From a virus: a stretch of DNA of 64,000 nt. The notes under the pieces were generated by a model. That model had not been told where the DNA came from and did not search any database. It saw only the letters and a list, made by a program, of their open reading frames with translations. The stretch covers positions 31,320 to 95,319 of the IMG/VR virus record IMGVR_UViG_3300009105_000002; one strand, given 5' to 3'. Positions 12,068 to 37,466 of this stretch are shown piece by piece (the stretch's first letter is position 1; each line of letters starts with the position of its first letter). Both the position numbers and the translations under genes were made by a program.

Positions 12068-12874
12068 ATGATGGGTAAATTTGGATTGTTATTACTCCTC
12101 TTGTTTTTTATAAGTGGTTGCGCTACGCTCAATTTTTCTGCCAATTATTATTCCCCTCCATCTAATTATAAAAGTGAAGTAAATAACTTGTGGACAGAAA
12201 TAAATTCTAACTTTTCTCTAAAATATAAATACACATTACGCATTGTTGATGACAATGAATGTCAAATGCCGGGTATCCCCGAAAACGACAATGGAGTTGT
12301 TAAATTGCCAGTTAATTATTTAAAATATGTATATCAAAATTATTACGATAATAGATTTACGATATTAACATGTTTAATTGTTCATGAATTATGCCATAGT
12401 GAATATGATTTACCTGACAACCCACCAGAAACTCATTTCCAGACTGATTTAAAAGCAATTTCTTTGTTATCCTGCTATACTACTATTTCAGCAGAAGATT
12501 ATTACAAAAGCATATATGTAGTAAAAAACTATTGGTTTGCCCGCAAGGGTATTGCCGGACATGCCTTTAATGTTGGTTGGAACGCTCTCCAAATAGTATC
12601 TTTAGTCAATGGAGGTTCTTATTGTTTTATGGATTGGTTTGCTACAGATTTAGATGTGCGCCTAAACCTATTATCAAGCAAATATGAAAAAATGCCACCT
12701 TGTTTTGCTATTACCAAGGATTCTAAAAATAATACTAATTCAGAAAAATCAGATTTTAAGTTTGCTTTTAAAAAGACAGACTACTATAAAATAGAAAGCT
12801 TAATTTATCCTGACTATACTGCGGGATTGGATGTATCTGAAAAAACAAGCATTAACATAGTGGGTGAAAAATAA
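12068..12874 (+). CDS. Lipoprotein zinc metallopeptidase, moron-like
   Basis: 268 residues. A lipoprotein signal ends in ISGC with Cys18 as the lipidation site. Residues 106-110 are HELCH, a HExxH zinc site, inside a hydrophobic helix (TCLIVHELCHSEYD); His123 or Asp127 in 'ETHFQTDLKA' could be the third ligand. It is AT-rich, lies on the opposite strand to the virion operon, and has its own promoter, as expected for a gene expressed from a prophage. Possible roles are envelope modification or superinfection exclusion; the substrate is unknown. No Shine-Dalgarno is present. Confidence 0.65.
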   Translation: MMGKFGLLLLLLFFISGCATLNFSANYYSPPSNYKSEVNNLWTEINSNFSLKYKYTLRIVDDNECQMPGIPENDNGVVKLPVNYLKYVYQNYYDNRFTILTCLIVHELCHSEYDLPDNPPETHFQTDLKAISLLSCYTTISAEDYYKSIYVVKNYWFARKGIAGHAFNVGWNALQIVSLVNGGSYCFMDWFATDLDVRLNLLSSKYEKMPPCFAITKDSKNNTNSEKSDFKFAFKKTDYYKIESLIYPDYTAGLDVSEKTSINIVGEK

Positions 12875-12877
12875 AAA

Positions 12878-15800
12878 CTAAGGGGAGATTTTAAGTTCCA
12901 TGTATAGGGCTTTAACGTCTTCTTCTATTGGTTTATCGGCATCTCTGTATTTCTTTCGTAAAACAGGGAGAATTTCTTTTCTTTCATCATCAGTAGCTAT
13001 CGAATAAACATTCAATCCTTCTTCAAGGGTGAGCCTTTTAAACGACTCCACGAAAGGAGTTAAGCGCGAATCTTTTGCAAGCTTCCTATAGCCGTCCCTC
13101 CCAAGCACCTCTATGGCCTCCTCTTTAATCTGCCATGGCCGAACCTCTCCTTTTCTGATTCTGTCTTTCTGCACCTTGCGATACAAGGTTTTTGCAAAAT
13201 CCGCTTCTGTGCGAGTAGTATCCGGCATCCTTTCAGAGATATAGCGATACATAAGTTTCTGCGCATTGCTCCGGGCAACATAGGAAGGCGCCGCGATTAT
13301 GCCGGTAATGGATATCAAAATATTTAACAGCGGATCAGGAGAGGTGAGTTGCATTCTTTCATAGTTCTTAAAAGAAAACGGTTTGGCGTAATTCTTTATG
13401 TGGATTGTCCTATCATAAAGTTGCTCCATTAAACCATCCTTTTCATCATAAAGCATGACATTATAAAAATCCTTATTCCTAAACTGCTCCATGGAAAGTC
13501 CGATTAGGGGGTGCCTTTTGCTGACAAATGTTTGTAAAGGCCTTGTAGCGTAGGCATATATATCCTTTGCGTAAGTAGGTAGAGATAACCGTTCGTCGGA
13601 TCCATCGGGGTTCTTTCTGCCAGTTCTTGGGAAGAAATAGTCCCTTATTTCTCTTGGGCGCTCCCCTGACAAGACATATGTTGCAATTGCCCCTATGATC
13701 ATATATACTATCATCGCGCCGATCCCATACGCCATTTTATGGCTTAATAGCTTATCTCCTGCTCTTATACGGGCTCCTGCAGTTCCTAAATCAACAGGTA
13801 TGCCCCCATATTCCCTCCAAGAGCCCAAATTCCACCCTACCGACCTCACAGAGGCCATCAAAACGTCTTTTAAGGTCTTATTCCAGAACAGGTTGTCATA
13901 TATCAGCGATCCCATGCGGTTATCCACGCTATCCCATACCTTTGTAAGCATATACCACAATTGCTCGTCGTTTATTTCTCCGGAGGCAGCACGCTCCATT
14001 TCGCTTTGTGCGAGTTTAGAAAATAGCCCTAATTTGCCGGTAGGAACATACCACTCCATAATCGGCTTGGCAGCGGTTTCTAAAATGGATCCAAATATAT
14101 TTAAAGGTAATTTCGCCATAGCAGCTATCTTCTCTATGCCCGATCCTACCAAAATATCCTTAAATGTCTTCTGTAACGCCTTGATTTGTTGGTTATAATA
14201 GAACACATCTATCCTATCTCTGCCTCCAGCTCTTATCATCGTATCTACTTTAAGCCTTAATTTCGGATCCTGTATAGTATCCATTTGTTGCTTATATGCC
14301 CTCTTAATCCGCGAGCCTTCCCATAAGACCTTAATAGGTGCTATTGGAAATGTAATCAAATCTTTCAATCCTTGATAGAGCTGTCCTTTTATAGTCAGTT
14401 TCCGAAGCCCTAATCCTACCGTAGAAGCCCAAACATCAGTAGTAACGTTTAAGCCGTGAAAAGCCGACAACGATAAATTGACTTGATTTAGTATGTTTCC
14501 AAACCCCCTCACTAAGTTATATCCTGTCGCTATGAGCTTATTGTCGCTTGTCCTTAATCCCGGCGAAAGGTGATTATTTATGATTAAAGCCACATCTTTA
14601 GGTGCGTAATAATGTCCCAACGTAGTGAACCCGGGTATCTTTATCTTGGCGTCAGCCTCCCCTAATACCAGAGAAGGTCTTATGTCAAGGATCGGCCTTA
14701 ATTGACCGTGCTCATTTAAAAACTTCGTGAATAATTCGTATATATCCGGCGCTAATTTCTTGAATTCCTCCGGCGCATGGATCAGCGCTTCCAGTAAAAC
14801 AGCCTCTTTTTCCCTGTATTTCCTTACATAGTTTTTATAACTCGCAGGTGCGTCTATACCTTTATACCTTGCATCGGCAAGCGCTCGCCATTGCTCGTTT
14901 ATATTTTTTCTCCACTCAATCGCCTCTTTGGTAGGCTTTACTTCTTCTGTTCCTACCTTCTTGCCCTTGACATAGGTGTGGACATAGGTGTCTTTATACG
15001 CCGTGAAAGTATTGAACAGGTTGAACCTATACCCTAAAATATGCCCTATTTCGTGGGCCAATACACTTTCCGGACTGGCAAATTTAGTCCTTACTGTTGA
15101 AGGCCATTGCGCATACCCCCAACGAGTGCCTCCTATGGTTACAAACCTCTTGGTATCTATTTCAAGGGATTTCGCCACATCCATAAGTTGTTCCACTAAA
15201 ATGCTGTCAAACGCCTCTTTCTTCGTTATCTCCGGAGGCATATAGACAGTAAAAGCGGTGTCGTTTATCTTTGCAAACCCTTGAGGTGGCGTCTTGCGAG
15301 AATATACAAACCGGATCATACCCCTATTTTTTAAATCCCTTATGACGTTTTGCGCCATTACATACCGGTCTACTTCGTGGAGTTTTAGCAATACAAGATC
15401 AACAGGATTATTGCTTACCGGTGTAAGCCCGGCCTCAAGGCCTTCTTTAATCGTCATATAAGTTCGTTCTTTAAGAAAACCCTTCGTGCCTTCCAACCTC
15501 TTTTTCCCCATAATCTTTGCTATCACGCCTTTTGCGTGCTCAAATCTCTCCCATATATGAGGAAAATAATTCTTATAAAAGTTTTGTAATTGCCCTTTCC
15601 CAAGATTTTGAACCGACTCTCGCCTTTCATCAAGGAGTTTTCTCATTACGTCGCTGAACGCTTGAAGTTTTTCATTTTCTTGAGGAAGGCCTTTTTCCAT
15701 ATTATCTATGAATTTATAACTATCCTCCTTGTTCATCCAAGTAAAGGCGCGGTGGGCTTTCTTTAACGCCTCAATAGCAGTAACGTCTTTATGTGCCAAC

Positions 15801-18800
15801 TTCGCTAATCCACCCCGCATAACTTGAGAGGTTACTTGCGCGAGATTTGATACCGACGCCGGAGATAGGATTTTAAGAAATTCCTTGATATAGTTTATTC
15901 TTTCAGGAGGAGGCATACCTGCCTCTACCTTTACTCTATCTGTTATTCTTACTTTTTCCTCTTTTGATTCGATCGTGCCGTATCCTTTTGGTGCTTTAGA
16001 GGCGACAGATGAACCGCCTGCGCCACCGCCTTTGACCGGTTTTTTATAAAAACCCACTGTAACTCCATAAATAAAATCTTTATCAGGTGTTTCTACGAAT
16101 TCCCCCCCGATCAGTTCTAACCCTTTTTCTTTAGCTTTTTGTTGCAATATTTTAGGCGTCATATCCTCAGCATAATTAACTTTCTCCTGTGCTTCATATT
16201 CTCCAAATCCTGTGCCTGCGTAGCATTTATCACACCACCCCTCGACATATACATTGCCCTCCCAATAATTTATCTTATTGGGATTATTTACATCAGGAAC
16301 TTTATCAGTAATTGCTTTAGCGCCCATCTCTTTACTTGGGGTTTCGGCGGCTTTCTCAACCCTCGGCTTAATATGTTCCTCTACTGCTTTTTCGGAAATC
16401 TCTACGCCCACACCCTTTCTGCCGGTAGCAACGGCTTGTTCTATCGTTACGCCGGAACCAGCGAAAGGATCAAAAACCACTTCGCCTTGTTCAGTAGTCA
16501 TTTCGATCATAGCTTTTAACATCTTGCGGGGTTTCTCGGTTTGATATCCCCTCGGCCTCACAAGTTTAAAGTTAAGATTTTTTATAGGTTTTGTGAGTTT
16601 CCCGCTAAAATTAAAGACAATTATTCCTTCCGGCTCGATTATATCGCCCCTCATATTACGAACTCTTGTAATTCCGTCTTTTTGTAATTTAGTATATTCA
16701 CCCTTACCGACGGCAATCATTTCTAATCTATTGAATACATCTGTATATCTCTGCATTTCCTTTAATCCGGATTTGGCTTGGGAATACATATAAATCAAAG
16801 GAGTATCTGATGTGCGCATTACTTGTCCAAGCCTTTCAACCATAGTATAAAATTGTTCAGGCGTTATATAGTCATACTTAATCCCTCTATTGCCTCCGAT
16901 AACTGCCGGTGTTTTATACGGGACGTCGAGGAATATCATATCAGCTTTAAATCCTTGATCTACGAGTTTCGGCACAATTTCAAGAGCATCGCCGGTATGT
17001 ATATAGGCAACATCTCGCCCTTGATTACGCAGAACATATACGCCCTTACCTACTCTTTTAAACGTGCCTTCCTTGGCGCCTACGCCTACGATCCTGCGAA
17101 CATTAGGTTCGAGGATTTCAGTTTCTTTGGCTATCTGCTTTATGGATTTAGGTTCTTCCTTGACGGCTTCTTTGACTTTTTCTTTTTGAACGATCTTGCC
17201 TTTTTCAAATACAAACTCTTTTTGTGTAGCGTCGGGCTTTTCTGCTTTTAATTCTTTTATTAAATCTTTATGCTCAACCTGTTCCTCGGTAGGTCGGAGA
17301 GGCGTCGGAGACATTTTGGCTTCCGGCGCAAGGGAGGGTTTAACAATCCGTGCCTTATCCTCATTTAAAACTATAATCTGATCTGCAAGAATTGCTTTGA
17401 AAAACTTATGGTCGGTTTCTTTTGCGATTTTCCGAACATTTTTAAAAACTACTGCGTCATACTTTTTAGCGAGTGCGTCAAAAAACTCTTTCTCTTGATG
17501 AAGTGCCGGATGTCCAACCTCTGCCTCGGCTTCCCTATATGCCTCAATACTGTCAACAACCTTTATCTTCGCCCCTTTATCTATCTCGTATTCAACAGAC
17601 TCAAGGTTTTTTATTACCTGTTTTGCGCCTACCTTAGCCATCCATTTCTGCTTATCGTAATCATAAAAGGTTTCAGCACCAGCTTTTTTCAACTCTTTTA
17701 AATGTTCTAATCCCCCTACTTCAACAATTTTATCTTCGCCTTCCCTAATAGAAGTTTTTCCCCATATCCTATCTTCTAATGAAAGATATATCCTGTCCCC
17801 AGCAAATCTACCAAGTTTTTCCTCCCCTCCTAATGATCCTGTGCCGTGAATAGGTTTCTTGGTAAAATCAAACCTTTCCCCTCGTTCCAATGCTTCCTTG
17901 CCTTCTTTTGTTGTGAAATGTTTAGCGCGGAGAGGCTTTTCTTCTGATTCACCCGGTTGCTTTTCTGTTACCCATTCGGGTTCTCGTTCTGTATCTTTCT
18001 TGCTTGCGCCTTCAGGATCCCCCTCTGCTTCCCCAGCTCGTAGAGTTTTTTCAATCTCGGATTCTGAGACTTTTTCTTTCCTGAGTTGCTCTCGTTCTTC
18101 TCTGATTCGTTCTTCATTTCCGTATCCCTCCGATAGATTTTTGTAAATCTGTTCTTGCTTTTCTGTTAATTTTTCACCCTTCTCTTTCTTGTCTATTATA
18201 TCAAGTGCTTTCTTTTTAGTCAAATTTGTCCAAGCATCTCTGAACCATTGCGGAAATGTAGATCCTTGACCAATCCATTCGCCTGTTTCTGTCTTTATGC
18301 GCTTGCCGGCTTCTCCCCTTTCTATCTCGGATTTCATACCCATAATTAAATCTTTTTCTTCTTGAGGGATTTTCGGTGCAGAAGGCTCCACTTCCTTAAC
18401 CGGCTTAAACTTCTTCTCGCCCTCTTTAGCCCACTCTTTTACCCATTCAGGGATTTCGGGCTTCTCTTTTGCAGATTTAACAATCTGATTATATTGTTTA
18501 TCAATCAATCCGCGTGCAAATAATTCATCTATAATCCTATCTTCACTATAACCTCCTTCGCCCTCCCCGAAGGCATCGCCCTTTAAAAATGTTACCATTC
18601 TCCATAGGGGGGAATCTGGATTTTTTAATTCTATAGCTACTAACTCCCGTATTTGTTCTCTTTGTGATTCCTGCAATTTGTTGAATTTGTGATGGCGTCT
18701 TTCGTGCTCAGCTATATATTCTTTATCAGCAATGTTTTCTTTATTTATTATTATAACATTATCATTAGGGCTTATATCTCCCAAGTCAAAATCTATAACC

Positions 18801-19942
18801 CCTGCTCTCCGAGCCATAATAAGAGAATTGCCATCTATTGCCATACCACCCACTGGTCTTAAATTTCCCATTTGTTTGATTTGTGCAGGAGATAATTCTA
18901 ATATTTTTTCCCCTCCCTCGCTTGATTTAATTTCAGGCTTAACCGGAGGTAGCGGAATAGGTTGAGGGGTAACAGCTTTGACGGCTATCTTGGGCGGCGT
19001 AACTTTCACACCTTTTGCGGCTTGATCTAAAAGTTGTTGAGAGGGAGGCCCAAGTTCTATCGGCTTAACTACCTGCTGAACACCGGGTATATTGGCTGTT
19101 GGGCCGGTTATGGTTTGTCCGGCACCTGCTGTATATTCCGGAGTCGTTTTTACAATCTTATACATTTCCCTTGAAAGTCGAGATATTTTATCAAAGGTTC
19201 TTGGATCAAGCGTCCGCTTTAATTCCATTATGGCTTTTCTATCAAGAACACCTTGTTTTATGGCTCTATTTATATTGTCACCAACCTCAAATGTAATTTC
19301 TTTTGCGTTCCGGATTTGCTTTACAGTTTCATATTTTGCGAATTTATAGGCAGAAGGGCTTACCGCCATAAGATATAGATATCCAGAGGGGGTTCCTACG
19401 GCGTTCCCTAAAACTGATAATGCTTTTGAGGCACCGGGATTATATCCTAATTCATTGAATAATTGCTCATAACTATAAGGGTGTCCTTCATCTGCTTCGG
19501 CTAATCCTTGTCGCCAAAACCCCCTTACTCTTATGGGTGTTAATGGCTTAAAAGTTTGTCCGGAAATAGCTTTCCCCCACTCCTGCATTACTCTCGCTGA
19601 TCCGCTTGACTCTCGGGTTTGTGCTGCACCAAGTTCTTTTAAAGGAAACGCTTTAGCCGGATAACTTAACCCGGCTGTCAATACTTCGTGCATACCCATT
19701 TTAGGTATATTTGTGCCTTTGTATTTCTCGGGGGAAATCATTGGCATTAAGACTTTATTAAGGGCTATTTTTGAGGTTGACTCTGCTGCTGGACGGAGTT
19801 TTTCCGGCACGGCTTCTTCTACCTTTTTGACAGAAGCCATCTGTTCTTCGCTTTCACGCAGATATTTTTTACGAGGATCTATGTCTTCCCTGACAGGTTG
19901 GAACCCAGCAAGCCCTACTTCTTGAACGGGGATAAAAGGCAT
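12878..19942 (-). CDS. Giant polyvalent protein with protease, ART-like and DNA methyltransferase regions
   Basis: 2354 residues, last gene of the virion operon. Visible parts: zincin motif HERRH at 413-417; Glu/Lys-rich linker; an ADP-ribosyltransferase-like region from 'IHGTGSLGG' (about 698) to 'YDAVVFKNV' (828); a winged-helix segment (about 935-972); an N4/N6-type DNA methyltransferase with motif IV DVPY (1006-1009, usual form DPPY) and motif I DPFAGSG (1158-1164); a second zincin motif HEIGH (1630-1634); and one strong membrane helix (about 2070-2092). This is the 'polyvalent protein' architecture known from phages and conjugative elements, thought to be injected with the DNA and to disarm host defences. 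Domain edges are estimates. Confidence 0.75.
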   Translation of the reverse strand: MPFIPVQEVGLAGFQPVREDIDPRKKYLRESEEQMASVKKVEEAVPEKLRPAAESTSKIALNKVLMPMISPEKYKGTNIPKMGMHEVLTAGLSYPAKAFPLKELGAAQTRESSGSARVMQEWGKAISGQTFKPLTPIRVRGFWRQGLAEADEGHPYSYEQLFNELGYNPGASKALSVLGNAVGTPSGYLYLMAVSPSAYKFAKYETVKQIRNAKEITFEVGDNINRAIKQGVLDRKAIMELKRTLDPRTFDKISRLSREMYKIVKTTPEYTAGAGQTITGPTANIPGVQQVVKPIELGPPSQQLLDQAAKGVKVTPPKIAVKAVTPQPIPLPPVKPEIKSSEGGEKILELSPAQIKQMGNLRPVGGMAIDGNSLIMARRAGVIDFDLGDISPNDNVIIINKENIADKEYIAEHERRHHKFNKLQESQREQIRELVAIELKNPDSPLWRMVTFLKGDAFGEGEGGYSEDRIIDELFARGLIDKQYNQIVKSAKEKPEIPEWVKEWAKEGEKKFKPVKEVEPSAPKIPQEEKDLIMGMKSEIERGEAGKRIKTETGEWIGQGSTFPQWFRDAWTNLTKKKALDIIDKKEKGEKLTEKQEQIYKNLSEGYGNEERIREEREQLRKEKVSESEIEKTLRAGEAEGDPEGASKKDTEREPEWVTEKQPGESEEKPLRAKHFTTKEGKEALERGERFDFTKKPIHGTGSLGGEEKLGRFAGDRIYLSLEDRIWGKTSIREGEDKIVEVGGLEHLKELKKAGAETFYDYDKQKWMAKVGAKQVIKNLESVEYEIDKGAKIKVVDSIEAYREAEAEVGHPALHQEKEFFDALAKKYDAVVFKNVRKIAKETDHKFFKAILADQIIVLNEDKARIVKPSLAPEAKMSPTPLRPTEEQVEHKDLIKELKAEKPDATQKEFVFEKGKIVQKEKVKEAVKEEPKSIKQIAKETEILEPNVRRIVGVGAKEGTFKRVGKGVYVLRNQGRDVAYIHTGDALEIVPKLVDQGFKADMIFLDVPYKTPAVIGGNRGIKYDYITPEQFYTMVERLGQVMRTSDTPLIYMYSQAKSGLKEMQRYTDVFNRLEMIAVGKGEYTKLQKDGITRVRNMRGDIIEPEGIIVFNFSGKLTKPIKNLNFKLVRPRGYQTEKPRKMLKAMIEMTTEQGEVVFDPFAGSGVTIEQAVATGRKGVGVEISEKAVEEHIKPRVEKAAETPSKEMGAKAITDKVPDVNNPNKINYWEGNVYVEGWCDKCYAGTGFGEYEAQEKVNYAEDMTPKILQQKAKEKGLELIGGEFVETPDKDFIYGVTVGFYKKPVKGGGAGGSSVASKAPKGYGTIESKEEKVRITDRVKVEAGMPPPERINYIKEFLKILSPASVSNLAQVTSQVMRGGLAKLAHKDVTAIEALKKAHRAFTWMNKEDSYKFIDNMEKGLPQENEKLQAFSDVMRKLLDERRESVQNLGKGQLQNFYKNYFPHIWERFEHAKGVIAKIMGKKRLEGTKGFLKERTYMTIKEGLEAGLTPVSNNPVDLVLLKLHEVDRYVMAQNVIRDLKNRGMIRFVYSRKTPPQGFAKINDTAFTVYMPPEITKKEAFDSILVEQLMDVAKSLEIDTKRFVTIGGTRWGYAQWPSTVRTKFASPESVLAHEIGHILGYRFNLFNTFTAYKDTYVHTYVKGKKVGTEEVKPTKEAIEWRKNINEQWRALADARYKGIDAPASYKNYVRKYREKEAVLLEALIHAPEEFKKLAPDIYELFTKFLNEHGQLRPILDIRPSLVLGEADAKIKIPGFTTLGHYYAPKDVALIINNHLSPGLRTSDNKLIATGYNLVRGFGNILNQVNLSLSAFHGLNVTTDVWASTVGLGLRKLTIKGQLYQGLKDLITFPIAPIKVLWEGSRIKRAYKQQMDTIQDPKLRLKVDTMIRAGGRDRIDVFYYNQQIKALQKTFKDILVGSGIEKIAAMAKLPLNIFGSILETAAKPIMEWYVPTGKLGLFSKLAQSEMERAASGEINDEQLWYMLTKVWDSVDNRMGSLIYDNLFWNKTLKDVLMASVRSVGWNLGSWREYGGIPVDLGTAGARIRAGDKLLSHKMAYGIGAMIVYMIIGAIATYVLSGERPREIRDYFFPRTGRKNPDGSDERLSLPTYAKDIYAYATRPLQTFVSKRHPLIGLSMEQFRNKDFYNVMLYDEKDGLMEQLYDRTIHIKNYAKPFSFKNYERMQLTSPDPLLNILISITGIIAAPSYVARSNAQKLMYRYISERMPDTTRTEADFAKTLYRKVQKDRIRKGEVRPWQIKEEAIEVLGRDGYRKLAKDSRLTPFVESFKRLTLEEGLNVYSIATDDERKEILPVLRKKYRDADKPIEEDVKALYMELKISP

Positions 19943-20641
19943 TTAGATATCCTCCCATTCTCCGTTCCCTTTATACCTTTTTGAGACACCTTCGGCATTT
20001 TTATAAACCCTGCCGACTACCAAATTTTCTTCTGGAATCGGCTTTTTCTGAAACGCCCCTTTGACTTTATCTACTATTTCTCTAATGTTAATACCACCCT
20101 TTTTTTCAACAACAGGTTCTGGTGTTACTTCTTCTTGAACCTCTGGATATTTCGCATCAAAGAGATTGGCTAAATCTGCGTCTATCCCACGCCAATCAGG
20201 GCCAAGTTTACGCATTATATAATTCTCGGCTTCTATCCGTGCTTGTTGCCCTATTCCAAACTCCTCTTTATAACCAGAAGGATCAATATAGCCGCCGGCT
20301 GCAATTCCACCTTTTATTGCTTCTATCTGCGCCGGAGTAAACTTACGCTTAATAGACAGATCTCCTGATCCGGTTACATCTAAATACCGATTACCTGATC
20401 CACCTTCAACTTGGAAATCATCAAGGACGCCTGTTAAATGCTCTTTTTTTACGCCATATTCTGCCTTTGTTTTCTTTTTATGGAGCTCCGCTTGGAACGC
20501 CATTTCTTTGCCTAATTCCACGTTCTTATTATAAGCGTCCACGACACTATTTATGGCGTCGCCGGTTGGATTGACACCCGGCATTTGCGCCATTTGGACA
20601 CCTGTTTGAAACTGCTCCATAGGTAATCTTAATCGTCCCAT
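19943..20641 (-). CDS. Probable internal virion / ejection protein
   Basis: 232 residues, no membrane segment. N-terminal helical part ('AINSVVDAYNKNVELGKEMAFQAELHKKK'), then a Gly/Asp-rich middle and a basic C-terminus ending 'VYKNAEGVSKRYKGNGEWEDI'. It sits one base from the polyvalent gene and 12 bp from a large Gly/Ala-rich protein, the place where podoviruses encode ejection proteins. No family recognised. Confidence 0.55.
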   Translation of the reverse strand: MGRLRLPMEQFQTGVQMAQMPGVNPTGDAINSVVDAYNKNVELGKEMAFQAELHKKKTKAEYGVKKEHLTGVLDDFQVEGGSGNRYLDVTGSGDLSIKRKFTPAQIEAIKGGIAAGGYIDPSGYKEEFGIGQQARIEAENYIMRKLGPDWRGIDADLANLFDAKYPEVQEEVTPEPVVEKKGGINIREIVDKVKGAFQKKPIPEENLVVGRVYKNAEGVSKRYKGNGEWEDI

Positions 20642-20653
20642 ATTTTACCTCTC

Positions 20654-22117
20654 TTATGTGTAAGATACTTTGTCTAATCCAAGACCTTTCTGCATCATCA
20701 TACCTCCAAATTTACCGAAGATCTCCTTGAATTGTGCCGCTGTTGCATAATCTATGCCGTATTCAAGCATAATCCTGTCCAGATCCAATTGTGCTATATC
20801 GGCATATCTATTAAAGGTTTGCTCGTCTACGCCTAAAGCGGTGCGCATATCCTCGGCCTCTCTGGTCAAAAATTCCTGTTGGTGTTGGTGTTCAAGGTTT
20901 GCTATATAATTCGATTTCTTCTGTGCCCAATCGCTTTCCAATTTCATCATATCTTTTCTGAAAGCAGAATCGGTTTCTATATCGGCACCCGGTCGCAATT
21001 GCTTGTAGCGAGATACAAGGCTATCTTTTGCATCTTTATAAGCGTTATCAAAATTCGCTAACTGCGCTGTCTTGTAGTCTTCCGGTAATCCTGAATATTC
21101 TGCCCCTAAACGGCCTGTAAGTTTTTCAAGTCCCAATGTTCCAATCGGTGTAACAGCGCCATCTCCTCCTTTTATCTTTTCAGAAAGACTGGCGACTTCT
21201 GCCGATTCAGGCATTTCCGGTTGTTTCATGCCCTGCGCCGCCATAGGAATTGCAAAACCGGCTAAAGTTTTTGGCCAGCTTTTGCCCAGCAATTTTGTCA
21301 TAATACCGCCTTGAGAGGCGGCTGATGATGTTTGACCTGCACTTGGTAATCCTGCCTTTGCTACTGAGGGAGCCGGCCCTCCGTATAAACGACTTACATT
21401 ACCGGTAGTGGCAGGCTTTGCTATACCCTGCGCTCCAATTGAACCCGTTGATTTTGGCACCGCTGGCGTTGTTGTTTTTGGGATACTAAACGCGTCTAAT
21501 GCACCTGCAGTTTTTCCTGCTGTTGCAGTTTTTCCTGCTGCTGCTGCTGTTAATCCTGTGCCTGTAGCAGCCGTTTTTCCTGCCGTCAATCCTGCGCCTG
21601 CGGATCCTGCAAGTGATCCTGCACCTGCAGCCCCCACGGCTGCGCCTCCTGCAGTTAAAGTCGGAGCTGCAAACATTTGTCCTGCCGTAGCCATATTACC
21701 TCCGGCTCCTATGCCGCCTGCCGTATAACCGGTAGCAGGGGCAGCTCCTCCATATAAAGTAGTTCCAGTGGCAGCAGTGGTTGTTCCAGTTCCAGTAGCA
21801 GCTGGAGCAGCAGCCGCTCCTCCTCCGGCCATAAGGCCTCCCCCTAAAGCAGCGGTAAGGATTCCAATAGTAGCATTTCTCCAAGTTTTCTTATGCTTAT
21901 ATCTAATCCCGTCTTCATCTTCATGGTTGCTATATTTCGCTATCATTTCGTCCATTTCGTGATCAAGAGTCAACCTGTTAAGCCGGCCATCCCCTAAGTC
22001 CATAAGGAAAATTTTACCGTTTTTCCTATCACAAAGACCGAACGAATCTTTCGCATAGCGATAGGGCAAATTTTCAAATTTTTCCGGACTCATAACTTCA
22101 ATTGTAAACTTTGCCAT
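20654..22117 (-). CDS. Gly/Ala-rich internal virion protein candidate
   Basis: 487 residues from ATG 22117 (AAAGGAG upstream). Residues 1-75 form a small domain with 'RLTLDHEMDEMIAKYSNHEDEDG', a degenerate HExx-like motif seen in phage proteins. Then comes one hydrophobic Gly/Ala segment and about 180 residues of Ala/Gly/Thr low complexity with repeated 'TAGKTA'. The last 170 residues are helical ('YKQLRPGADIETDSAFRKDMMKLESDWAQKK'). Likely an ejected or membrane-inserting virion protein. Confidence 0.55.
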   Translation of the reverse strand: MAKFTIEVMSPEKFENLPYRYAKDSFGLCDRKNGKIFLMDLGDGRLNRLTLDHEMDEMIAKYSNHEDEDGIRYKHKKTWRNATIGILTAALGGGLMAGGGAAAAPAATGTGTTTAATGTTLYGGAAPATGYTAGGIGAGGNMATAGQMFAAPTLTAGGAAVGAAGAGSLAGSAGAGLTAGKTAATGTGLTAAAAGKTATAGKTAGALDAFSIPKTTTPAVPKSTGSIGAQGIAKPATTGNVSRLYGGPAPSVAKAGLPSAGQTSSAASQGGIMTKLLGKSWPKTLAGFAIPMAAQGMKQPEMPESAEVASLSEKIKGGDGAVTPIGTLGLEKLTGRLGAEYSGLPEDYKTAQLANFDNAYKDAKDSLVSRYKQLRPGADIETDSAFRKDMMKLESDWAQKKSNYIANLEHQHQQEFLTREAEDMRTALGVDEQTFNRYADIAQLDLDRIMLEYGIDYATAAQFKEIFGKFGGMMMQKGLGLDKVSYT

Positions 22118-22448
22118 GTTCCACTCCTTTCGTGTAAGTGCAAAACAAATCGTTTTTATTTCCATTAAATCTGAACCAACAAACTGATTCGATTTGTGGA
22201 AATCTTGTCTTAAAATAATGCCACATCTTCCCTTTTTTAATTGTAACGCCTCTCGAAACTATCTTGTCTAAATAAATAAACCTTCCGTTTAAATCTTCTT
22301 TTACAATAGACCACATTGGACGCTTATAGCATTTCTTGACATCATTTGTAACGAAATAAGTTACGATAGCCTTCCTTCTTTCTAACGGAATTACCCTCCC
22401 CTTTAATTTCATCACCAAAAAATACCAAAGCATTTTCATTAAAGACAT
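22098..22448 (-). CDS. Small conserved-type phage protein
   Basis: 116 residues from ATG 22448, overlapping the upstream gene's end by 10 bp and the downstream start by 20 bp. The pattern 'GRFIYLDKIVSRGVTIKKGKMWHYFKTRFPQIESVCWFRF' suggests a compact alpha/beta fold with a Trp/Arg-rich surface. Function unknown. Confidence 0.5.
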   Translation of the reverse strand: MSLMKMLWYFLVMKLKGRVIPLERRKAIVTYFVTNDVKKCYKRPMWSIVKEDLNGRFIYLDKIVSRGVTIKKGKMWHYFKTRFPQIESVCWFRFNGNKNDLFCTYTKGVEHGKVYN

Positions 22449-26649: not shown

Positions 26650-26844
26650 TTACCTCCCGTTTTTTAACATAAAATCTTTTAAATCTTCTATCCTTGAATT
26701 CACGTCATCTATTCTTGTATCAAAATGACCTCGTAAGCCCTGAACACTTTCTTTTATACTATTTTGAGCTTGGTGACATTCTCGCGTTTTAACATATTTG
26801 CCATTCTTTCCCGAAAAAGTAACGTCAAAACCAAGTAAATTCAT
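26650..26844 (-). CDS. Small coiled-coil protein
   Basis: 64 residues. A short strand-rich N-terminus 'LLGFDVTFSGKNGKYVKTREC' is followed by a helix with heptad spacing ('IKESVQGLRGHFDTRIDDVNSRIEDLKDF'). Its ATG overlaps the stop of the LamG gene. Function unknown; context suggests lysis accessory or fibre trimerisation. Confidence 0.5.
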   Translation of the reverse strand: MNLLGFDVTFSGKNGKYVKTRECHQAQNSIKESVQGLRGHFDTRIDDVNSRIEDLKDFMLKNGR

Positions 26845-28082
26845 TACTTACCTCCCATCCATTTCCCTCGACTCGTTTCCTGCCACACCGAGTTGTCAGT
26901 TTGATAGACAAGGTTCAAAACAAAACCTGAACCCATTACATATGCGCCTCCACCCATCAGAGAAATACCGGTTCCATCTCTAATCCTCAGTTTAGGGGTA
27001 TCTGTTGTATGGTGTATAGTTAATAAATCTCCGGTTTTACCTGCGGAAATTTGAGGATTTTTGGAAATTTCAACTATTGTTTCGTCGCCGCCTCCTGATA
27101 GGGCAAAGGGTTGTTCTGACGGGGTTACAGTTTCTATTAAAGTTTTAGTAAAACCCTTACCGACATTAGCATCAGAAGGAGTAGCTGTATCTAAAAGCGA
27201 CGTCTTAACAACGGCTTTAAGTATGACCTCTGAAAGAGTAGTCGTATCTGTCATAGGAAGCTTTACTATGGCTTTAGCCCCAAAGGGTTCGGAGGTAGTA
27301 ATGGTTTCCGCCACAGACTTTCCTATGGCTTTAGCCCCAAAGGGTTCGGAGGTAGTAATGGTTTCATTGATAGTTTCAGTATATTCTGATAAGTTATTAT
27401 ACGCAGCAGTGGGGGGTGTAAAGTTAGAAGTCCATCTTGCTACACCCTTGCTTATACGAAATTCGTCTATCCAACCAACGACGCCCTTACTTCCTCCGTT
27501 TTCTGCGCCGATGGCTAATATTGCCGCTATATTTCCGAGTTCCTCGTTCTCTGCTAAAGCTGAACCCCAATATATGCTTTTTGAATCTCCATCTATAAAA
27601 GCATACATGTTGTTTTCGCCAGTGCCATATCTAACTACTGCGACATGCTGCCAGTCAGTTGTAAAAACAGCACTGTTAGTATTGAACGCAGCAGCAGTAG
27701 TTGCACCACTTTCATAGTAATAAAAATATAGTTTCCCGTTATAGCTGAGTATTTGAGCATAGTTGGTGCCATTTTCATATTGTTCATAAAACATAAATGT
27801 TGACGCGACCACAGGGTCAGTATTAAATTTAACCCAAAAATCTATGGTGAAGTTTCCTGTTCCATAATACCAGTCGTCATCGTCCGCATAAGTTATATAA
27901 TCGTCTCCGTCTAACAATAAACTCGCAGTTCCAAATTTCTTCTGCGCCGTGTCTAATTGAGCATCGTTTACGCAGGTAGCATTACCGTGACTGCCCCCCA
28001 CAGAAGTATCTGGAACAGTCGTTGACGTATCCGATCCATCACACGCAAGCAATAGTTTTGTATTACTATCGTTACCCGGCAT
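26844..28082 (-). CDS. LamG-domain virion protein with Thr-rich repeats
   Basis: 412 residues, no signal peptide. Residues 5-225 form a LamG/concanavalin-like domain, about 60% identical by eye to that of 6350-7213 ('YGTGENNMYAFIDGDSKS', 'LAIGAENGGSKG'). Then come imperfect repeats of 'ETITTSEPFGAKAI' (two near-exact copies), a linker, and a C-terminal strand-rich domain of about 80 residues. Likely a sugar-binding fibre or decoration. Loss of the signal peptide relative to its paralogue is notable. Confidence 0.65.
   Translation of the reverse strand: MPGNDSNTKLLLACDGSDTSTTVPDTSVGGSHGNATCVNDAQLDTAQKKFGTASLLLDGDDYITYADDDDWYYGTGNFTIDFWVKFNTDPVVASTFMFYEQYENGTNYAQILSYNGKLYFYYYESGATTAAAFNTNSAVFTTDWQHVAVVRYGTGENNMYAFIDGDSKSIYWGSALAENEELGNIAAILAIGAENGGSKGVVGWIDEFRISKGVARWTSNFTPPTAAYNNLSEYTETINETITTSEPFGAKAIGKSVAETITTSEPFGAKAIVKLPMTDTTTLSEVILKAVVKTSLLDTATPSDANVGKGFTKTLIETVTPSEQPFALSGGGDETIVEISKNPQISAGKTGDLLTIHHTTDTPKLRIRDGTGISLMGGGAYVMGSGFVLNLVYQTDNSVWQETSRGKWMGGK
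27266..27365 (-). repeat. 43-bp tandem-type direct repeat inside the LamG gene
   Basis: An identical 43-bp block occurs at 27266-27308 and 27323-27365. It encodes the duplicated 'TITTSEPFGAKAI' unit. Exact identity at the DNA level means a recent duplication. Confidence 0.8.
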
Positions 28083-30966: not shown

Positions 30967-31545
30967 CTATATGCCTGCGGCATTTAAGCCGGTAGTGATA
31001 AGTTTCTGGTGCCTGTTGATCTTAACACGCCACTTACAATAATCGCCGTAATCGTTGTCGCCATCGGCCGCATACATCGGGCCTAACAACAAAAACTGCC
31101 CTGACGAAGTTTGCACTCCGCTACGGTCTAATACTGCATTACTTAATCCGGTTGTCGTATTCCCTGTCGTAGCCAAATAGGTAAAATCTGCCAAATTGCC
31201 TACTTCACTGACAGTCAAAGCTGTTCCTCCCGTATCCTCCTCAATTATAAACTCTTGATTAGGATCGTCCGCGACACCTACAAAAACCGGTGGTATCGTA
31301 GAACCAATTCCTTTCAGATACGGTGCGTCCTCGTAAGGACAGCTCAAACCGTCTTTTAAAAAGAGTTCCGCAGAACCTAAAATAGCATTCGCAGAACCGC
31401 ATGTAGCCGGTATGACTTTACCAGTATTGTCTAAGGCAACGGGTTGATGTAGATACATTGCTTTCGCTGTGTCCGCGCGATAGTAATTTATCTTCACAGC
31501 ACCGGGGCCCGCAGGGAATAAGCCTTTTGTAAATTGAACGTTCAT
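30967..31545 (-). CDS. Capsid-associated / decoration protein candidate
   Basis: 192 residues, directly upstream of the capsid gene. 'YYRADTAKAMYLHQPVALDNTGKVIPAT' and 'ILGSAELFLKD' suggest a small beta-barrel like DUF2190/lambda gpD-type head proteins. Strongly translated position next to the capsid supports a stoichiometric head role. Confidence 0.5.
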   Translation of the reverse strand: MNVQFTKGLFPAGPGAVKINYYRADTAKAMYLHQPVALDNTGKVIPATCGSANAILGSAELFLKDGLSCPYEDAPYLKGIGSTIPPVFVGVADDPNQEFIIEEDTGGTALTVSEVGNLADFTYLATTGNTTTGLSNAVLDRSGVQTSSGQFLLLGPMYAADGDNDYGDYCKWRVKINRHQKLITTGLNAAGI

Positions 31546-33125: not shown

Positions 33126-33380
33126 CTATTCGTCTTCTGGTTGATCCAATTCGCGCATATAGTTCTCTATATGCACCGGCACTTTTTCTATGCCATCTAT
33201 TTCACCTTGCATAAGAACTGCGTCGTGCAAGGAACCTTTACGGAGTCGGTTTGACCTCTCCACTTTTTTTCTCTGACATACTCTCTCCAAGAGCCGGAGA
33301 CATACCGCCCAACCTGGACTCTTGCGTAGATCCTGCAGATCCTTCAACTCCCGCCGTTTCTCCTCCTGACTTATTTCCAC
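33126..33380 (-). CDS. Small post-portal protein overlapping the portal 3' end
   Basis: 84 residues, overlapping the portal gene by 143 bp in another frame. The overlapping part is not a shadow: 'LKDLQDLRKSPGWAVCLRLLERVCQRKK' followed by 'LHDAVLMQGEIDGIEKVP' matches a small helical protein commonly encoded right after portal genes in short-tailed phages. Function unknown. Confidence 0.5.
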   Translation of the reverse strand: MEISQEEKRRELKDLQDLRKSPGWAVCLRLLERVCQRKKVERSNRLRKGSLHDAVLMQGEIDGIEKVPVHIENYMRELDQPEDE

Positions 33381-35466
33381 CTTCTCCTCCTTTTATCATT
33401 AACATCCTTTGTATCATTGCTTGCATCATCATCTGGTGCTCGCCCATATGATTTTGGTTATACAGTAACACCTGTTCCCTTACTCCATCCGGGAGAAATG
33501 CTATTGTAGGCGACGACATCAACTCATTGTGAACCTGTAAATGCCAAATATGGTTCTCTGTAATGAGTGCCCTTACTTTATTAAACTCCCCTTGGATCAT
33601 TAACGTATTCTCGTCCTCGGGCGCATCAGTATCCTTTTCCTCCGGAGCCGGCCCTAAAAATCTTTCAGCTTCATCTCTTGAACTATGAGAAGCAACGAGT
33701 TTAAATGTCGCCTTGTAAATCTTAACAGGATCCGTTCCTACAATCGGGTTCGCTAAGAGTTGTCCATACAAAAATCCGGCTATCTGCCGTTCCATATCTT
33801 TTGATCCACCCGAGGAGTCTTCTAATAAAAAAGCGTCAAATTCTCCGGAAATACCTTCGTCAGTAAGTTCGCCGGCTTGGAATATCGGATCACCTTTCTC
33901 TCCAAGTATTCTTGTCTCAAACCCCGGCGGGATATTAAGTTGTATCTTATCCAATATCTGCGTTAATATCCTTGAAGCACCCGCTCGTAATCTTTCTCCG
34001 GGTCTCTGAAAACGTTCCTGCGCGTTCGAGAGAATAGCGTTGGTTCTGGTGGCAGTTCCAGAACCACCCACTATTTCTGACTCCTTGCCCATGACATAAC
34101 TCGAGGCAGCGGTTAATCTCTCTACAAACTCCAATACAAGCTTAATAGCATTTATAAGGCGTTCTACAGGAATATCAAAGTCGGGGAAATACACGTTCTT
34201 TTGAGGATCTGAAACCGGTATAAGCTTTCGAGGGGATAGGTATATAGTTGAGGGATTTAAGTCGCCGGAAGGATCGTAAAAGCCCGGCCTCATCATTGAA
34301 TAAGTATTACCGTCAGTCATTTGGTTAAAGCACGCGTCAATTTCTCTCGCCAACTCCTCAACCATTTCCAAAGTGCCTAATCCGTCTAAGCCGTCAACCT
34401 CATTTAATCTCGGCAGGAATTTTGTCCACTCTATCGGCCTCATTGCTCTCTTAGAAAGGTTTTTTACCTCCACTCCTCCAAGATAAATTTTATTATCCAT
34501 ATCGATTATGACGCGGATATCTTCTGCAAATCCGTCGCCGTCAAAATCGTATTTCATATATTCAACAAGGCAATTGATAGGATAAACCCTCACCTTCACC
34601 TCTTTAAGCATTTTGACTTCTTCTTCGGTAGCCGACGCGTCAGCCGAGATCACGACCTTTTCTTCCACTTTCGGACGTAGCAAGGTTTGGACATTTACCA
34701 ACTGCTCCTCGATTTCCATTTGCTCAAGGTCGCCGAATTTATAATCGTCCTTTACGACAACAGGATCATTGTAGATATTCTTCTGCCCTTTTTGGAGAAA
34801 GACATTTTCTTTAGGTATGATATTGCACTTTGTTTTTTCGATAAGTTTTAACACCTTGTCTTGAAAAGAGTCTAATTCTTCGCCATTAGGGCCTCTGATA
34901 ACAGTGGTTTCTGATTCGCCTATATCCTTATACTCGACATCCCAAATTACCTCAACAAGAGAGTCGCCGTAACCGGCCGTTACCATTACCCAATTATCAA
35001 AAAACTCCCTCATTTTTGTCCATACCCTGATCCACCAATCCATAAACTTCGTTATGCGCTCGACTTTCTCAAAGTCATTTTTCTCGCCCGGACGCCATCG
35101 GCATAGGTCTTCATTGTAAACCGCCGGAAAAAGTTTTGAGCATAGCATTTCGAGGATTGCCATAGCAATGCGCATACTTCTATTGGAACAGTTTTTCCAC
35201 GGCTTATCCTTCGGCTTTCTTTTCCCAAAATAAAGATTGTTAAGCGATTCCATATGTTGCTCAAAATGCAGCACGTCGCCCTTAGAATTAGTCCGGTATT
35301 CTTTTGTATCGCGATTTTCCTTGCCGGATCGGTAATCCTGCAAAACCATTTCAACGAGAGTTTTTTCCTGCGCCTCGGATATCTGAATCTGCATGCCGGG
35401 CTTTGCTACTTGGGGCGTAGGCTCCATCTCCTCGTTTTGAATTCCTTCCTTGACCTCTCGTGCCAT
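33238..35466 (-). CDS. Portal protein (P22-like)
   Basis: 742 residues, near the length of P22 gp1. Contains 'GYGDSLVEVIWDVEY', the conserved 'YDFDGDGFAEDIRVIIDMDN' loop, 'FLPRLNEVDGLDGLGTLEMVEELAREIDACFNQ' and 'GTATRTNAILSNAQERFQ', all typical of podovirus portals. C-terminal 60 residues are Gly/Ser/Met-rich. It forms the dodecameric DNA gate at one capsid vertex and lies just after the terminase genes. Confidence 0.8.
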   Translation of the reverse strand: MAREVKEGIQNEEMEPTPQVAKPGMQIQISEAQEKTLVEMVLQDYRSGKENRDTKEYRTNSKGDVLHFEQHMESLNNLYFGKRKPKDKPWKNCSNRSMRIAMAILEMLCSKLFPAVYNEDLCRWRPGEKNDFEKVERITKFMDWWIRVWTKMREFFDNWVMVTAGYGDSLVEVIWDVEYKDIGESETTVIRGPNGEELDSFQDKVLKLIEKTKCNIIPKENVFLQKGQKNIYNDPVVVKDDYKFGDLEQMEIEEQLVNVQTLLRPKVEEKVVISADASATEEEVKMLKEVKVRVYPINCLVEYMKYDFDGDGFAEDIRVIIDMDNKIYLGGVEVKNLSKRAMRPIEWTKFLPRLNEVDGLDGLGTLEMVEELAREIDACFNQMTDGNTYSMMRPGFYDPSGDLNPSTIYLSPRKLIPVSDPQKNVYFPDFDIPVERLINAIKLVLEFVERLTAASSYVMGKESEIVGGSGTATRTNAILSNAQERFQRPGERLRAGASRILTQILDKIQLNIPPGFETRILGEKGDPIFQAGELTDEGISGEFDAFLLEDSSGGSKDMERQIAGFLYGQLLANPIVGTDPVKIYKATFKLVASHSSRDEAERFLGPAPEEKDTDAPEDENTLMIQGEFNKVRALITENHIWHLQVHNELMSSPTIAFLPDGVREQVLLYNQNHMGEHQMMMQAMIQRMLMIKGGEGGNKSGGETAGVEGSAGSTQESRLGGMSPALGESMSEKKSGEVKPTP

Positions 35467-35515: not shown

Positions 35516-36013
35516 CTATTCTCCTGTCGTGTCAATTACTTCCGCCCTTGGTTTCACTCCCAGTTTATCAAGTTTATTAAGAAGGTTTTGTTTTTCTTGT
35601 TCAAGCTGATCATCCGACATGTTGTTGATTTGAGCAAAGACCACATTGCCGATAGCGGTTGATTTTCCGCCCTCAACTTCTTCCCTGACAGAATCGAGGC
35701 AAGCTTTAGCTGCGCTAATTTTGTTCTGTGCAATTGCTTTCTGATAGAGTTCGTCATATCTCCTTAGCCTCACTCTTTTTTGCGCGATTGCTTCTTCCAT
35801 AGTAGTAGCCAAATATTGTGCGCGCATATCCGTTACAATCACATTCCATCGCGTTCCCTTTTTCAAAAAAATTTCATTTATGTATTGAGGCGTGGTATCA
35901 ATGTTATATGTTTCCTTCACATACCTCACGGCTTCGGCAGGGCTCATATATTGAGCAACTTCCCTTGCTATGTCTAGCTTCTTCTTGCGGGAAAGATTTC
36001 TCTTGTTAGACAA
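35516..36013 (-). CDS. Terminase small subunit candidate
   Basis: 165 residues. N-terminal helices with an HTH-like segment ('LSRKKKLDIAREVAQYMSPAEAVRYVKETYNID'), a central coiled coil, and an acidic tail: the layout of small terminases that bind the packaging site. It follows the large subunit gene with an 8-bp overlap and precedes the portal. Confidence 0.55.
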   Translation of the reverse strand: MSNKRNLSRKKKLDIAREVAQYMSPAEAVRYVKETYNIDTTPQYINEIFLKKGTRWNVIVTDMRAQYLATTMEEAIAQKRVRLRRYDELYQKAIAQNKISAAKACLDSVREEVEGGKSTAIGNVVFAQINNMSDDQLEQEKQNLLNKLDKLGVKPRAEVIDTTGE

Positions 36014-37466
36014 CTGCGCCCTCCAAATCTGGCTCCAACACTTTTCGGGCCTTGTAATAAGGCTTATCTATGACTAAATACCTCACGGTATCTGCACCGT
36101 GGGCGTCTTTTTCTTTCGCCTGTTCGTTGGGGTTTTTATCTTGGCTTGAAGATCCCCTGTCTTCTTTATACTGGTAATTCCGCATACTCCGGATAGTTTC
36201 CGGGCAACGCCTCTTGTGGAAGTATATCTTTGGTTTATTGGTAATGTCTATTGTTCGGGAAGGATCAAACCGGAGGCGTTCTTTTACGAGCAAGTGCCCT
36301 GTTTCTCTATCATCGTTTCCGAGGAACGTGGAACAGCCATAAAGCGACAACTGTTTCTGAACGGTTATATTTACGCCGACCTTGTGAGGTTTTGCGCCAA
36401 AATTAGGATCAAGGAGCCGTTTCCGCATATTGTATCCCCGGAAATGTTCCCTCGCCTTGATTGCGGCCGCGAGTTCCATAAGATCCCCGTGTATCAGGAG
36501 TTCATCATCTACAAACAAATCCCCTATCTTATCCACGAATGCCCAAATAACATGGTGCTTGAGCCGGTCGTGCGGATCTGCCACGCACCATACCGGCGCG
36601 TCCTCAAAGCCCTTATCGGTATATTCCCACTCCTGACAATGCACGCTTGAGAAATTCTTATAAATCATGCCCCTCAAGTGGAAGAACTTGCCGTGAATGC
36701 GGCTTTCTATGTCGTCTGGATCCAACGAGAGCAGGAACTCCTCAATGGCTTCATCTGTAAGGATCTGATTGCCCTTGATATCACGCTTATTGTCATAAAT
36801 CGACGCTGTAACCATATCAATACGCTTGCCGTCCGCCTTATCGCACAACTTTTCCTTCATCCACGGCTCGATCAATGGCGTAAAAGTCAGCACTACCCGG
36901 CCCATGCGGTCGACAAGACCTCTCTGGATTGCCTTGTATTTCGCCTGATCCTGCGGTTCGTCCCCCCAGTAAAAATCCCAATCTGCTGACTCAAAGGCCA
37001 TGGTATCCATTTCATTGGTCAGGATATCAACCGTGCCCCCGTCCTTCATAATGATTTTCTGTAAGTAACCTTGAGGGGTTCGTTTCCACTTCAAAACCTT
37101 ATCTTTGGGTAGATAAGTCATTATCTTTTTCTCTATTACTCTTTCAATCACCGGGAAATTCGTAGCGACAACTACTGCCTTGATCGGGCCGTAGAACCTG
37201 CGATCCCGCGGATACCACTCCGGATATTCCCTTGTCATATGCCAAGCAAGCTCAACTGCCCCGAACACGGTCTTGCCGGAACGATTGCCCGCGCAGAATA
37301 TCTTAATCCGGGCCCTTGACCGGAACAGGCAGAACTGCTTCTCGTTCGGCATGTAATACTTAATACCGTTCTCTTTCTGCCGGCGGTCAAGCTCGCGCGT
37401 AATGGCGTCAAGCTTCACAAGTGCTTGCCGTAACTCAACTTGTGGCATTTCCAGAGTATTTTCCAT
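36006..37466 (-). CDS. Terminase large subunit
   Basis: 486 residues. ATPase: Walker A AGNRSGKT (59-66), Walker B DFYWGDE (164-170), and coupling motif 'VVLTFTP' (191-197). Nuclease domain with acidic residues in 'VADPHD' (Asp297), 'LLDPNFG' (Asp353) and 'EKDAHGADTVRY' (Asp454, Asp459). Packages DNA through the portal. Gene order large, small, portal is reversed from the most common arrangement. Confidence 0.85.
   Translation of the reverse strand: MENTLEMPQVELRQALVKLDAITRELDRRQKENGIKYYMPNEKQFCLFRSRARIKIFCAGNRSGKTVFGAVELAWHMTREYPEWYPRDRRFYGPIKAVVVATNFPVIERVIEKKIMTYLPKDKVLKWKRTPQGYLQKIIMKDGGTVDILTNEMDTMAFESADWDFYWGDEPQDQAKYKAIQRGLVDRMGRVVLTFTPLIEPWMKEKLCDKADGKRIDMVTASIYDNKRDIKGNQILTDEAIEEFLLSLDPDDIESRIHGKFFHLRGMIYKNFSSVHCQEWEYTDKGFEDAPVWCVADPHDRLKHHVIWAFVDKIGDLFVDDELLIHGDLMELAAAIKAREHFRGYNMRKRLLDPNFGAKPHKVGVNITVQKQLSLYGCSTFLGNDDRETGHLLVKERLRFDPSRTIDITNKPKIYFHKRRCPETIRSMRNYQYKEDRGSSSQDKNPNEQAKEKDAHGADTVRYLVIDKPYYKARKVLEPDLEGAVV

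Follow-up and report, generated by a model that had tools for sequence, protein, structure and literature searches.

A giant phage protein that appears to join a conserved C-terminal core to exchangeable N-terminal cargo

Introduction

Among polyvalent proteins, multiple zincins can be interspersed along the sequence, and a methyltransferase, a zincin and an ADP-ribosyltransferase (ART) can occur together in one chain (Iyer et al., 2017; PMC5512222). In the virion RNA polymerase of phage N4, the zincin-bearing region is needed for encapsidation (Iyer et al., PMC5512222). In podoviruses, the genes of the ejection proteins lie in the order gp14-gp15-gp16, and gp16 combines an N-terminal hydrolase with C-terminal membrane regions (PMC8954989). 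Here, we analyze the gene for a 2354-residue protein in 64,000 nucleotides of viral DNA (the window: positions 31,320 to 95,319 of the 95,319-bp IMG/VR record IMGVR_UViG_3300009105_000002). We propose, with a probability of roughly 0.7, that this protein is a large internal virion (ejection) protein of a tailed phage, which holds the position of T7 gp16 and doubles as a carrier of cargo.

Results

The giant gene is an open reading frame (ORF) of 2354 codons with an ATG start, at window positions 12878-19942 on the minus strand. The same gene is present in a second viral contig from another sample, which is 99.99% identical to the window across 17,226 bp. Residues 664-881, used as a query, led us to a 2346-aa homologue in two further contigs, L008 and L009 (numbers of this form are our handles for contigs and the proteins they encode). 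This homologue is 73% identical to the window protein across residues 664-881 and about 35-36% identical across residues 1355-2327; it keeps an HEIGH motif and lacks both the methyltransferase described below and a second motif, HERRH. A scan of bacterial genomes with the giant protein as a single query gave no match. With a two-sequence alignment of the C-terminal region, hereafter the core, nine bacterial genome contigs were matched, and a deepened core alignment matched 142 viral contigs, 80 of which we studied. The core is C-terminal in all 91 core-containing ORFs found, and the stretch ahead of it ranges from ~180 to 3300 aa. By sequence search, neither the window methyltransferase nor the HERRH region was found in any of the core relatives (91 core ORFs). 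By these comparisons, the giant protein consists of two halves, a conserved C-terminal core of ~1000 aa and a variable N-terminal cargo of ~1300 aa, with the following map:

18953..19942, minus strand: residues 1-330, N-terminal region without detectable relatives
18383..18925, minus strand: residues 340-520 around HERRH (413-417), candidate zincin, with a possible third ligand in DELFA (472-476)
17300..17953, minus strand: residues 664-881, mobile domain with an ART-like pattern (three-protein conservation)
17024..17188, minus strand: residues 919-973, predicted winged helix preceding the methyltransferase (three helices and a beta-hairpin in the model; sequence conservation)
16343..17017, minus strand: residues 976-1200, predicted beta-class N6/N4 DNA methyltransferase (Pfam, PHROG, PDB profile, fold), with motif IV DVPY at 1006-1009, YQTEK at 1133-1137 and DPFAGSG at 1158-1164
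15263..15886, minus strand: residues 1353-1560, core part A (NYFPHIW region)
14633..15259, minus strand: residues ~1562-1770, zincin cassette inside the core (HEIGH at 1630-1634, third ligand E1711)
12881..14632, minus strand: residues 1771-2354, core part B (NNxLSPGLR ... YDNLFW ... membrane helices)
13670..13726, minus strand: residues 2073-2091, predicted membrane helix

Pfam, PHROGs and NCBIfam contain no model of the core, and tblastn with three different core queries gave no significant match in 50,697 named phage records. Its structure was modeled by AlphaFold2 from a 62-sequence alignment with high confidence (mean predicted local distance difference test (pLDDT) 90.1, predicted template modeling score 0.77). 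By Foldseek, the whole core had no match in PDB at E<=0.001. The same program returned 29 viral predicted structures from BFVD at E<=0.001 (best E=1e-13); many of these carry the name 'large polyvalent protein associated domain', and one of the 29 is from Cellulophaga phage phi19:3. These matches suggest that polyvalent proteins already include the fold class of the core, which would be a branch of it that has diverged in sequence. The core also holds the membrane helix noted in a first-pass annotation of the window, which had been made from the letters alone; two such helices are predicted, at residues 2073-2091 and 2205-2223. Among individual relatives, a core protein of 2095 aa lies at 6017-12301 of L029, from Trichlorobacter thiogenes ATCC BAA-34, likely in a prophage, and this locus might give access to the family through a cultured host. 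Another, of 4077 aa, with RadC, LPD1 and LPD5 (L020/L081), is among the largest of the family.

The first-pass annotation had placed the gene at the end of a virion operon. Consistent with this, the giant gene closes a run of minus-strand genes in which the terminase large subunit and an SU10-like portal are also found:

12878..19942, minus strand: gene for the 2354-aa polyvalent or ejection-type protein, stop codon included (ORF list)
19943..20641, minus strand: second trio gene, 232 aa, T7 gp15 position (ORF list; trio synteny in relatives)
20654..22165, minus strand: first trio gene, 503 aa, Gly/Ala-rich, T7 gp14 position (ORF list)
33238-35466, minus strand: SU10-like portal, same run as the giant gene
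36006-37466, minus strand: terminase large subunit, same run as the giant gene

Two contiguous smaller ORFs, with median lengths of 254 and 384 aa, precede the core gene in 57 of 62 relatives. In two relatives, L022 and L030, the first gene of this trio was assigned to the 'internal virion protein' family PHROG 418 (E=3.5e-25 and 9e-23). Judged by sequence and synteny, the giant gene is the predicted third member of an internal-virion-protein trio that ends the virion operon; the conserved trio and the PHROG 418 matches support an ejection-protein role. The virion would probably be short-tailed.

Three other products of this region have features of their own. The first trio protein (20654-22165, minus strand) has an extra N-terminus of ~110 aa, with LDHEMDEMIAKYSNHEDEDG ahead of its Gly/Ala-rich hydrophobic stretch. 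A lipoprotein-like ORF of 268 aa (12068-12874, plus strand) is convergent with the giant gene, with 3 bp between them, and has its own zincin-like motif, CLIVHELCH. In a 412-aa protein (26844-28082, minus strand), several PHROGs (baseplate wedge or large virion structural) match one stretch of ~200 aa.

The main motifs of the giant protein begin at residues 413 (HERRH), 1006 (DVPY), 1158 (DPFAGSG) and 1630 (HEIGH). Two HExxH motifs in this protein are far above chance: 0.035 are expected in the shuffled sequence, and two copies appeared in 0 of 1000 shuffles. Mapping to the core profile identified residues ~1562-1770, around HEIGH, as an insertion at one fixed site of the core. This cassette is present in 36 of the 62 core sequences and, by parsimony, its state changed about ten times on the core tree, gains and losses counted together. 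Across 33 aligned cassettes, with a mean identity of 39%, the sole invariant residues are H1630, E1631, G1633, H1634, E1711, A1714, P1732 and G1771. In the model, HEIGH lies on a helix (1625-1640) preceded by a helix and three strands, and E1711 lies on a second helix (1709-1722), a zincin topology as given by Iyer et al. (2017; PMC5512222). When the cassette profile was compared with PDB, MtfA-type peptidases were nearest (E=0.012 and 0.057), in an alignment that spans both motifs. Thus, the HEIGH site has the features of a gluzincin, HExxH with a downstream Glu on two helices that follow a small beta sheet (33 sequences; model). Collectively, the invariant HExGH and E1711, the modeled topology and the MtfA matches make it likely that the HEIGH zincin is an active gluzincin.

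Core pairs with 53-71% identity have slight or undetectable N-terminal similarity, and relatives whose cores are 53-62% identical have next to nothing in common there. L043 and L064 have cores that are 99% identical, and their N-termini, 880 and 1423 aa long, can be matched in pieces only; two copies of ART-PolyVal are found in L064 and none in L043. We regard this pair as a natural cargo exchange. The domains found in core relatives include Glyco_hydro_108, phage lysozyme, ART-PolyVal, ddrB-ParB, PBECR3, RadC, LPD1, LPD3 and LPD5. In the window protein, the 664-881 domain travels apart from the core: it is 73% identical to that of L009, though the cores share about 36%, and it recurs in the L003 protein (39% identity), which lacks the core. 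By these sequence comparisons, the N-terminal ~1300 aa are best described as variable cargo, swapped among relatives.

The cargo includes the methyltransferase, which matches Pfam PF01555 (E=6e-16) and, across residues 981-1216, PHROG 67 (E=4e-20). A PDB profile search also places residues 976-1200 among beta-class N6/N4 methyltransferases, and the modeled fold matches CcrM (E=5e-11) and M1.HpyAVI (TM-score up to 0.83, by target length). The order of motifs (IV, then X and I), the fold and the catalytic residues are those of the beta class, with D[VI]PY as motif IV. Thus, sequence and model identify residues 976-1200 as a beta-class N6/N4 DNA methyltransferase, as the first-pass annotation had supposed, and its winged helix is likewise borne out by the model and by conservation ahead of the methyltransferase. 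Catalysis is putative. Eight other giant phage ORFs (L112-L114, L117-L119, L121 and L123; 1047-4029 aa, some of these being minimum lengths) contain the winged helix and methyltransferase as a unit that is 47-61% identical to that of the window protein. None of the eight contains the window core within the stretches examined, so the winged-helix methyltransferase appears to be a mobile module.

Motif IV is DIPY in all eight of these ORFs and DVPY in the window protein. Three distant solo relatives (L124, L125 and L127) have DPPY. In Malaciobacter mytili, a solo plasmid enzyme combines DIPY with an N-terminus that resembles a winged helix, showing that the D[VI]PY variant also occurs outside giant proteins. 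We rejected a dead enzyme as the default explanation of D[VI]PY, as the motif is kept in nine proteins and in the solo plasmid enzyme. Ribosomal RNA adenine methyltransferases carry N[IL]PY, so an enzyme can be active with a hydrophobic residue here. A methylase-helicase dyad of the DarB type was ruled out by the beta-class motif order and because Pfam and NCBIfam scans found no helicase domain in the giant protein.

For the HERRH region, support for a second protease does not extend beyond the motif. Its only relative in viral contigs is in the near-identical contig, and there is none in named phages; no PDB profile matches it, and MPTase-PolyVal (PF18818) has no match in the giant protein. 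Within DELFA, E473 may provide the site with its third ligand. The model of residues 340-1225 is poor (mean pLDDT 57) except for the methyltransferase and winged helix, and we did not use it as fold evidence for the HERRH and ART-like regions; two alignments with misplaced fragments were set aside. In the 664-881 domain, H675, Y719 and D829 are invariant in the three proteins that share it and resemble the H-Y-D triad given for polyvalent ARTs. ART-PolyVal (PF18760) did not match this domain by profile or by six-frame family search, and hhalign against the ART-PolyVal copies of L021, L064 and L036 gave nothing meaningful. We conclude that residues 664-881 are a real mobile domain whose identity as an ADP-ribosyltransferase is unproven.

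These results sort the claims of the first-pass annotation. Its reading of a polyvalent protein holds, with a methyltransferase and a zincin in one 2354-aa ORF and a third mobile domain at 664-881. Of its two zincins, HEIGH is borne out by the conserved HExGH...E and the modeled topology, and HERRH, a motif with no profile match, is not. Its ADP-ribosyltransferase label fell on a conserved domain and found no ART-PolyVal match. It had proposed models by segment and profile searches as checks: the models gave methyltransferase and HEIGH zincin folds, with low confidence around HERRH, and the profiles recovered the methyltransferase and the MtfA resemblance of the HEIGH cassette, with nothing for the HERRH and ART-like regions. 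The supposedly new set of two proteases around a methyltransferase does not stand, as only HEIGH is supported as a protease and, being part of the core, it does not form a pair with HERRH. Nor is the domain set itself new, since interspersed multiple zincins and chains with methyltransferase, zincin and ART had already been described (PMC5512222).

Discussion

Sequence comparison establishes the position of the gene, the core family, a fixed-site cassette with an apparently intact active site, the exchange of cargo and the predicted methyltransferase fold. From here we infer virion location, ejection, autoproteolysis and all targets. The C-terminal core, mostly helical, would pack in the head, and its membrane helices would insert at the host inner membrane as DNA enters. 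The N-terminal cargo would be driven into the host together with the DNA or before it. The methyltransferase would most likely methylate incoming DNA against restriction, and the ART-like domain would modify a host target. Most likely, the zincin cassette would cut its own chain, in the head or after entry, and thereby free the cargo; autoprocessing is the most economical role for a cassette that forms part of the carrier.

The zincin might instead be an effector that, once injected, cleaves a protein of the host, in the manner of the lethal-factor-type zincins of other conflict systems. Host-targeting zincins are discussed as an alternative by Iyer et al. (PMC5512222), MtfA-type peptidases are the nearest profile matches of the cassette, and the cassette is gained and lost among relatives, as cargo is. 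However, it sits at a fixed site inside the core and outside the variable cargo, a location that agrees better with a function linked to the carrier than with a target in the host, and we consider an effector the less likely reading. The giant protein could also be an internal scaffold and processing protein of assembly, with the methyltransferase acting on phage DNA in the producing cell and no delivery at all. The late-gene position would suit such a role, and DdrB of phage P1 is cleaved before packaging (Iyer et al., PMC5512222), but a methyltransferase working in the producing cell would need no fusion to the core, and this explanation seems to us quite improbable. Nearly all core relatives come from metagenomes or draft genomes, and assembly errors, or the decay of a gene whose core alone is functional, might account for the N-terminal variation. 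We give this almost no credence, given the long stop-free frames in dozens of independent contigs, the intact recognizable enzymes in the variable part, the same window N-terminus in two samples and the methyltransferase motifs retained across nine proteins.

Several observations weigh against an ejection protein that carries cargo, the reading that we prefer. The core has no significant match in PDB, so that the likeness to T7 gp16 is one of gene position and layout. Family scans found neither a curated polyvalent domain nor a recognized peptidoglycan hydrolase in the window protein. As 26 of the 62 core sequences have no zincin cassette, zincin cleavage cannot be required for delivery in all of them. 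Finally, the phage has no cultured host.

More broadly, and tentatively, since we put it somewhat below an even chance, the family may be a delivery platform of widespread, largely uncultured phages, in which a core with an optional self-cleaving zincin cassette releases interchangeable effectors. If so, methyltransferases, ADP-ribosyltransferases, nucleases and wall hydrolases would be among the effectors entering a new host, and recombination would swap cargo even at 99% core identity, as polymorphic toxin systems swap toxin domains. Apart from this tentative view, carrier and cargo can be told apart within one lineage of giant phage proteins, and in pairs such as L043 and L064 the cargo differs on a constant carrier. 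The core is a handle on early-infection effectors, as any part fused ahead of it becomes a candidate for an effector of anti-defence or entry. Pfam, PHROGs and NCBIfam contain no specific model of the core, of the fixed-site zincin cassette or of the winged-helix D[VI]PY module, so that proteins of this kind would be taken for hypothetical ones.

How does this protein compare with described systems? The methyltransferase shares its fold and motif order (IV, then X and I) with the beta-class N6-adenine enzymes CcrM, M1.HpyAVI and RsrI and differs from them in having D[VI]PY in place of DPPY, an N-terminal winged helix and a setting within a giant protein. The polyvalent DarB type is a gamma-class NPP(Y/F) enzyme fused to an SNF2 helicase, whereas the window enzyme is beta-class. 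Like the N4 virion RNA polymerase, the window protein is a giant chain with a zincin that would be delivered from the virion; unlike it, it has no RNA polymerase domain that Pfam or PHROG scans could find. Like gp16 of T7 and P22 (PMC8954989), the window protein is the product of the last, and largest, of three clustered internal virion genes and has C-terminal membrane helices. The N-terminal peptidoglycan hydrolase of T7 gp16 has counterparts in relatives of the window core; in contrast, the window protein has no recognized hydrolase, is far larger, has a variable N-terminus and matches these proteins neither in sequence nor in PDB fold. The polyvalent proteins (PMC5512222) resemble it as giant multidomain chains beside virion genes in which zincin, methyltransferase and ART-like domains occur together; its core fold is found in LPD-annotated proteins. 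Curated polyvalent domains were matched in core relatives and not in the window protein itself. The window protein differs from the described ones in that its core has no Pfam, PHROG or NCBIfam model and in that its zincin is a fixed-site cassette of the core. Judged by the searched libraries and papers, the features that seem not to have been described are the constant core, the cassette at its fixed site, the exchange of cargo and the D[VI]PY winged-helix module.
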